64,000 bases of DNA from Lysobacter sp. KIS68-7. GTDB lineage: Bacteria > Pseudomonadota > Gammaproteobacteria > Xanthomonadales > Xanthomonadaceae. Position 1 is the first letter of the stretch, and each line of letters begins with the position of its first letter. Made by a program: the position numbers and the translations under genes. The notes beneath the pieces are model-generated. The model worked only from the letters and a program-made list of their open reading frames with translations, was not told where the DNA came from and did no database searches. Shown here piece after piece: positions 18,357 through 19,711 of the stretch. Location: contig NZ_CP089925.1 of assembly GCF_021284745.1 (NCBI RefSeq), positions 1,673,001 to 1,737,000 of the forward strand, in the 5' to 3' direction.

Positions 18357-19313
18357 TTATTCCGCCACGCCCTTGGATTCCGCGGCGCACAACACTTCCG
18401 GCTGCGACAGCGGCCTGGGCCGCCCCAGCAGCGGGTGGACGAACACCGCGGCCAGGATGATGGCCACGCCGGCGTAGAAAGCCGGGGTCAGCTCGCGCTG
18501 TTCGCCGAGCAGCAGGATGGCGAGCACGATCGCGTAGACAGGTTCGAGGTTGACCGCCAGTTGCTGCGCGAAGGCGCTCATGTGGCGCAGCGCAGCCAGC
18601 GACAGCGCGAAGGGCAGCAGCGTGCAGGCGATCGAGAGCGTGGCGAGCAACGCAAGGTCGCGCGTGCCGGGCACCGCGAAGGTATCGCCCGCGAAGGCGT
18701 GCGACATCCCGGGCAACAGCGGCATCAGCGGCGCGAACAACGTGAGCGCCACCGCACCTGCGCCGAGTTCCACCGCCGTCACCGTGAGCGGATCGCCGTG
18801 CTCGACCATGCGCTTGTTGAGCGAGCCGAAGATCGCCACGAGGAAGGCCGACAAGGCACCGACCGCGATGCCCACGCGCATGCCCGCCGGCACGCCGCCT
18901 ACGACGAGCGCAACGCCCGGCAGCACGGCGATGCCGAGGCCCATGTCGCGCTTGGAAAAGCGTGTGCCTGCGACCCAGGGCTCGATCAACGCGACGAACA
19001 CGGTGGCGAGCGCGATGCATGTCGCGCCCACGGACGCATTCGACAACTTGATCGCGCCGTAGAACGTCAGCCAATGCAGCGCGACGAGCACGCCGATCCC
19101 CGCATACGCGCCGATCGTTCGCCACGACATCGCGCGCAACCCGCGCCACACGACGGGGAACAACAGCAACGCCGCCACCACGATCACCAGGCGCCACCAC
19201 ACCAACGGAAGGGCAGGCAGCGAGATCATCTTGCCGAGGATGGCCGTGAAGCCCCACAGCACGACGCAGAAGTGGATCTGCAGGTAGGCGCGGTTGGTGG
19301 GGGTCATCGACAT
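18357..19313 (-). CDS. EamA/DMT family transporter
   Basis: 318 aa, ten predicted membrane helices in two EamA repeats (first FCVVLWGFTAILGKMI; second beginning ALSAFLVAIFGSLN). DMT transporters export small metabolites, amino acids or drugs; the substrate cannot be assigned. The start codon lies 17 bp from the divergent TfoX-like start at 19331. No ribosome-binding site precedes it; instead GATAAT (19320-19325 on the minus strand) sits 6 bases before the ATG, pointing to a leaderless transcript. A second EamA gene of the same family, not closely alike, lies 1.4 kb away at 20706. Confidence 0.9.
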   Translation of the reverse strand: MSMTPTNRAYLQIHFCVVLWGFTAILGKMISLPALPLVWWRLVIVVAALLLFPVVWRGLRAMSWRTIGAYAGIGVLVALHWLTFYGAIKLSNASVGATCIALATVFVALIEPWVAGTRFSKRDMGLGIAVLPGVALVVGGVPAGMRVGIAVGALSAFLVAIFGSLNKRMVEHGDPLTVTAVELGAGAVALTLFAPLMPLLPGMSHAFAGDTFAVPGTRDLALLATLSIACTLLPFALSLAALRHMSAFAQQLAVNLEPVYAIVLAILLLGEQRELTPAFYAGVAIILAAVFVHPLLGRPRPLSQPEVLCAAESKGVAE

Positions 19314-19330
19314 GGGCCTATTATCGCGTC
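19314..19330. promoter_or_regulatory. Shared bidirectional leaderless promoter core
   Basis: Only 17 bp separate two divergent ATG codons. Their A/T core reads TATTAT (19319-19324) on the plus strand and GATAAT (19320-19325) on the minus strand, each exactly 6 bases before its start codon. Both are good -10 hexamers. The -35 regions would have to lie inside the opposite coding sequence. Confidence 0.55.
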
Positions 19331-19711
19331 ATGAGCGACGACTTCCTTGCCTACCTCGATGAGTTGTTCTCGGACTTCGGCCCGATCACCTCGCGGGCGA
19401 TGTTCGGTGGGCACGGCGTGTACCACGCGGGGAAGATCCTGGGCATCGTCATCGACGACGCGCTCTACCTGAAGGCCGACGCGGAAACGGTGCCGTTCTT
19501 CGAAGCCGCGGGCTGCGCGCCCTTCCTGTACGACGCGGGCGACAAGCAGATCGCGATGTCCTACTGGTCCTTGCCGGCCGAGGCCATGGATTCGCCGCAG
19601 GAGTTCCTGCCCTGGGCACAGCGTGCGTGGGAGGCGGTGCTGCGCAAGCCGCCCGCCCGTGCGCGCAAGCGCCGCGCGAAACCCGCGCGCAAGACGCCCT
19701 CGCGCCGCTAG
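19331..19711 (+). CDS. TfoX/Sxy N-terminal domain protein
   Basis: 126 aa. The TfoX N-terminal fold is clear: LDELFSDFGPITSRAMFGGHGVYHAGKILGIVIDDALYLKAD, the usual opening of this domain, and a later YWSLPAEAMD. In Haemophilus and E. coli the two-domain Sxy/TfoX activates competence genes with CRP; this protein has only the N-terminal domain, then a very basic tail (ARARKRRAKPARKTP) that may bind nucleic acid. A competence role is therefore not established. No ribosome site is present; TATTAT lies 6 bases before the ATG. The stop codon shares its bases with that of the convergent LysR gene (CTAG, 19708-19711). Confidence 0.9.
   Translation: MSDDFLAYLDELFSDFGPITSRAMFGGHGVYHAGKILGIVIDDALYLKADAETVPFFEAAGCAPFLYDAGDKQIAMSYWSLPAEAMDSPQEFLPWAQRAWEAVLRKPPARARKRRAKPARKTPSRR

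Follow-up and report, generated by a model that had tools for sequence, protein, structure and literature searches.

Warman 2021 reportedly described bacterial bidirectional promoters in which a symmetric -10 element is shared by the two strands. In the parts consulted of Middlemiss 2023 (PMC10268837), the divergent start sites of such promoters are most often 18 bp apart, as positions -7 and -11 coincide and both sides have a -18T, and a -18T can suffice to stimulate transcription. The parts consulted of Warman 2026 (PMC12825309) also give 18 bp as the commonest distance, 10 and 23 bp being common as well, and report for five E. coli bidirectional promoters that there was no basal competition and that interference appeared once one direction was strongly activated. 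Separately, Zheng 2011 (PMC3160421) described leaderless genes whose -10, TANNNT, precedes the start codon by about 12 bp, and mapping in M. tuberculosis showed the divergent neighbours prpD and Rv1129c both to be leaderless (PMC3898074).

Bidirectional promoters with a shared -10 are already established, as are leaderless genes, and the layout analyzed here, between an EamA gene and a tfoX gene, combines both; judged from its sequence, the locus is probably a doubly leaderless variant of the known bidirectional promoters. It resembles them in having one -10 on both strands, the 18-bp distance, the -7T/-11A coincidence and a two-sided -18T, but its predicted starts are the start codons themselves, so that neither mRNA would have a leader; the term leaderless does not appear in PMC10268837 or PMC12825309. 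The distance to the start codon and the lack of a Shine-Dalgarno (SD) sequence are those of the leaderless genes of Zheng 2011, whereas the latter are single genes, and no shared divergent -10 is treated in the part consulted of that paper (PMC3160421). The prpD/Rv1129c pair is likewise divergent and leaderless on both sides, but, in the part of the source consulted, its start sites (1254630 and 1254510) are 120 bp apart, so that the two genes share no -10 (PMC3898074). A non-exhaustive literature search, conducted without Warman 2021, found no report of a doubly leaderless promoter with a shared -10.

Sequence and geometry of the EamA/tfoX gap

The window, that is, the whole stretch of 64,000 nucleotides from Lysobacter sp. 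KIS68-7 that was analyzed, carries on the minus strand a gene for an EamA-family transporter (18357..19313, 318 aa, ATG at 19313; Pfam EamA, 8.2e-24) and on the plus strand a gene for a TfoX_N-domain protein (19331..19711, 126 aa, ATG at 19331; Pfam TfoX_N, 3e-30), in agreement with the earlier note, which had reported divergent EamA and TfoX-like genes 17 bp apart. An NCBIfam search gave no family for TfoX and only a match below the cut-off for EamA. The tfoX gene and a convergent LysR-type gene end on a common CTAG (19708-19711 of the window), the bases of their stop codons being shared across strands.

The whole intergenic gap, GGGCCTATTATCGCGTC (19314..19330), measures exactly 17 bp between the divergent ATGs and is the candidate bidirectional promoter core. 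On the plus strand TATTAT (19319..19324), the putative -10 of tfoX, lies 6 nt from its ATG; on the minus strand GATAAT (19320..19325), the putative -10 of EamA, lies 6 nt from the other ATG, and the two hexamers, which were placed correctly in the earlier note, overlap by five bases. Shared -10 bidirectional promoters are recognized by opposite-strand start sites 7-25 bp apart; here, with +1 set at the A of either ATG, the predicted spacing is 18 bp. As in that class, A 19320 and T 19324 are used by both strands, with -11A and -7T coinciding reciprocally, and a T stands at -18 on each strand if the starts are the ATGs, a trait that is common in the class and not obligatory. Both genes also have a -10-like hexamer about 12 bp ahead of the start codon, as leaderless genes do.

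No Shine-Dalgarno match was found at the EamA or TfoX start by anti-SD duplex energy, which was -1.8 kcal/mol for EamA and -2.4 kcal/mol for TfoX; since these values are near the median of random positions (-2.7), a clear ribosome site is absent at both starts, as had been claimed. The corresponding gene median was -3.6 kcal/mol, a value that understates real SD sites, having been taken at the outermost start of each of 294 genes from a rough call. A consensus scan of 19200-19450 on both strands for canonical promoters (a TTGACA-like -35 at 16-18 nt plus a -10) gave none, and it is therefore on the -10 elements that the claim of a promoter depends; the nearest thing to a -35 is a weak TTGGTG on the plus strand, 19 bp ahead of TATTAT, and the lack of a canonical -35 counts against a promoter working in both directions.

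We nevertheless consider it likely that the 17 bp form a bidirectional sigma70-type promoter, with one pseudo-symmetric -10 giving two leaderless mRNAs; that 18 bp is the commonest spacing in the published class, in the parts consulted of PMC10268837 and PMC12825309, favors this two-way model. RNA polymerase would load on the core facing either way. Within nATAATn, each base pair read as -11A on one strand would be read as -7T on the opposite one, and this reciprocal use would put the first base of each mRNA on the A of its ATG, at a spacing of 18 bp. The predicted tfoX mRNA start is thus 19331 (plus strand), whose complement would be the EamA -18T, and the predicted EamA mRNA start is 19313 (minus strand), whose complement would be the tfoX -18T. 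Both mRNAs would be leaderless and translated without a Shine-Dalgarno sequence, and, in the absence of a canonical -35, the T that pairs with the A of each start codon would serve as the -18T of the partner. One polymerase at a time would occupy the core, and at low activity both genes would be expressed independently. From the geometry we infer the two start sites, the leaderless translation and the role of the -18T. If the model is true, two divergent protein genes are driven by 17 bp that contain no untranslated sequence, and the locus is a natural test of whether the A of a start codon can also act as -18T for the promoter facing it.

Signals of the same kind were counted in 464 kb of this genome (400 kb plus the window), where rough gene calling yielded 294 genes and 664 ATG candidates. 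TANNNT ended 6, 7 and 8 nt ahead of an ATG in 11, 7 and 6 cases, whereas the distances of 10-25 nt had 0-2 cases each and those of 26-44 nt had 0-7; the peak at 6-8 nt favors the two-way model. If the model is true, many starts of the leaderless type would exist in Lysobacteraceae, and start calling that relies on SD sequences may misplace genes. Short divergent gaps alone are not rare in the same 464 kb, because 21 of the 48 divergent neighbor pairs had an outermost-start gap of at most 60 bp, negative gaps counted.

Conservation of the core and exchange of the divergent partner

Five genomes of the genus were compared (G000-G004), with G001 corresponding to locus L003 and G002, G003 and G004 to L. 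dokdonensis (L007), L. gilvus (L008) and L. lactosilyticus (L006). The arrangement CAT-N6-ATAAT-N6-ATG was present at the EamA locus in four of them (G000, G002, G003 and G004), and ATAATA was unchanged in all five. TATTAT has the same position in L006, L007 and L008, and nATAAT ahead of EamA is found in these three and in L003, where GATAAT is retained 6 nt before the EamA ATG and tfoX sits 40 bp away. In the four genomes with the 17-bp form, none of the 13 four-fold sites of EamA that are A or T in the window was invariant, compared with 64/153 for all its four-fold sites; for TfoX, in three genomes, the figures were 0/3 and 13/39. That the core and the gap length were kept in 4/5 genomes while the A/T four-fold sites of EamA were not (0/13) supports a function of the core. 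The distance between the EamA ATG and the -10 was constant at 6 nt despite an N-terminus of varying length (the whole protein has 318, 326, 327, 327 and 312 aa across the five genomes), a constancy that favors the two-way model. The two gene trees disagree: the sequence placed outside the remaining four is L003 in the EamA tree (81/84) and the window in the TfoX tree (91/90, drawn open).

In L. lactosilyticus the divergent side is occupied, at the same 17 bp, by a different gene, here called X, with tfoX lying beyond it. TATTAT stands 6 nt ahead of the gene X start, the same geometry as tfoX has in the window, and this service to another gene favors the two-way model. The product is a hydrophobic protein (195 aa in L006, about 195 aa in L006/L100) for which a Pfam search at E 0.01 gave no family. 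Of 82 rows (the best 80 of 395 loci plus two), 11 have a match to gene X upstream of EamA and on the other strand: L006 and, with 33-40% identity, L011, L015, L016, L022, L035, L041, L042, L051, L074 and L075, with tfoX past X in some. The row L042, titled Nostoc sp. CHAB 5824, has a Pseudoxanthomonas-like EamA locus, probably from contamination in the assembly. A functional linkage between tfoX and EamA is unsupported, the divergent partner being different in L006.

If the two-way model is true, the locus is also a natural test of the way in which divergent partners of leaderless genes come and go. A more speculative extension, which we hold only tentatively, is that CAT-N17-ATG with a central nATAATn forms a self-contained 23-bp unit whose start codons would be promoter parts, each supplying its own 5' end and the -18T of its partner, and that such units could capture new divergent neighbors. 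Capture would need neither a promoter nor a ribosome site to be acquired, because a gene whose ATG came to lie 18 bp from the ATG of a leaderless partner would gain promoter, start site and start codon together; one such case would be the change between tfoX and gene X with the spacing kept.

The family comparison comprised 82 rows, namely the window, L003 and the best 80 of 395 loci, after the duplicates L001, L002, L004 and L005 were dropped. The EamA gene followed the leaderless rule in 41/82 rows; its start is ATG in 39 of them and TTG in the two others, which were discounted. The 39 rows favor the two-way model, and they also suit a reading that we judge unlikely, in which EamA alone uses the core as a leaderless promoter and tfoX is transcribed from elsewhere or by weak leakage, its 6-nt distance being partly coincidence. 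The tfoX gene was inside the fetched upstream flank of EamA in 14/82 rows, 10 of which had it no more than about 150 bp away, and by eye four of these 10 had a -10 at 6 nt before the tfoX start (the window, L007, L008 and L020); this proportion, together with L003, which keeps the EamA side although its tfoX is 40 bp off, counts against the two-way model and for a promoter of EamA only. Such a promoter accounts poorly for the 17 bp and the TATTAT at 6 nt kept in L007 and L008, with a different gene in L006, and symmetric -10s spaced like this initiate in both directions in E. coli, in the parts consulted of PMC12825309 and PMC10268837. The exact 17-bp form at EamA was limited to 4/82 rows, a further point against the two-way model; the conservation across Lysobacter and Xanthomonas that the earlier note had suggested checking was thus observed for the -10 on the EamA side and not for the shared form. 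In many Luteimonas loci the -10 lay, by eye, further upstream of EamA, which would therefore have a short leader there.

The earlier note had further proposed that sharing the -10 makes the expression of the two genes mutually exclusive or tightly linked. We consider it improbable that the arrangement evolved for this purpose: one polymerase would block the other, and strong activation in one direction represses the opposite one in E. coli, but at the five promoters in the part consulted of PMC12825309 basal activity was too low for competition, so that the proposal is unsupported; besides, the partner is replaceable, as gene X in L006 illustrates, and few rows have tfoX in the fetched flank. 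Ordinary leaders, with promoters inside the neighboring coding region and an A/T core that is no promoter, would fit the absence of a canonical -35 near the core, but are very improbable given that neither start has an SD sequence, that the A/T core is conserved and other A/T sites are not, and that the scan of 19200-19450 held no other canonical promoter.

Occurrence of the geometry in family genomes

Patterns with the same core were searched in the family genomes and counted by hand. The gap-17 pattern gave 42 matches in 39/198 genomes, the gap-16 pattern (CAT-N5-ATAAT-N6-ATG) 107 in 76/198, gap 18 gave 53 in 43/196, gap 20 gave 47 in 39/198, and a scrambled core 24 in 24/198. The patterns read backwards gave 2, 3, 3, 8 and 2 matches (gaps 17, 16, 18, 20 and scrambled), a control that is biased because reversal turns the core into a stop codon. 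The 17-bp geometry was unenriched over gaps 16, 18 and 20, so it was rejected as a family-wide class, and this result weighs against the two-way model. The earlier proposal of one shared -10 for two leaderless genes is backed by the geometry, the lack of SD sequences, the conservation in close relatives and the TANNNT signal of the genome, and not by a canonical -35 or by enrichment across the family.

The loci inspected were those listed, 30/42 for gap 17, 30/107 for gap 16, 30/53 for gap 18, 30/47 for gap 20 and 24/24 for the scrambled core. Among these matches both sides were gene-like, by the stricter rule, in 7/30 (gap 17), 5/30 (gap 16), 7/30 (gap 20) and 1/24 (scrambled), and by a looser ORF rule in 10, 10, 7 and 5 of 30 for gaps 17, 16, 20 and 18 and in 2/24 for the scrambled core, where both loci also passed a permissive rule for the left -10. 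The left hexamer is part of the search pattern at gaps 16-18 and hence uninformative there; at gap 20 it is independent. Four of the 10 gap-17 loci that were gene-like on both sides (looser rule, 30 listed) were the EamA locus; L087, L092 and L103 were rejected as doubly leaderless pairs, since by eye a later Met looks like the true left start, and so were the remaining three, whose left frames look like chance ORFs.

Gap 16 was 2-2.5 times commoner than gaps 17, 18 and 20. Most of its loci, among the matches listed, had a gene on the right side only, and these genes, from reading, were taken to include hemC, map and thiG. The excess was rejected as a set of doubly leaderless pairs, with at least one gene-like side in 28/30 of the matches listed and both in only 5/30 (stricter rule). 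The upstream base composition offered no explanation for it, and it may reflect single leaderless promoters that carry a T at -17.

At gap 20, the left -10 lay at 6 nt in four of the seven loci that were gene-like on both sides (looser rule, among the matches listed), and therefore doubly leaderless pairs with overlapping -10s probably occur at other spacings. From reading their proteins we take these four pairs (L149, L150, L152 and L154) to be ubiE with an ArsC-like gene (in two genomes), rubredoxin/thiE and hrpB/tatD. A second pair that looks doubly leaderless, with separate hexamers and 38 bp apart, was seen in the genome of the window (L206, 11436/11474), and its proteins read as those of tatD and hrpB, which we presume them to be.
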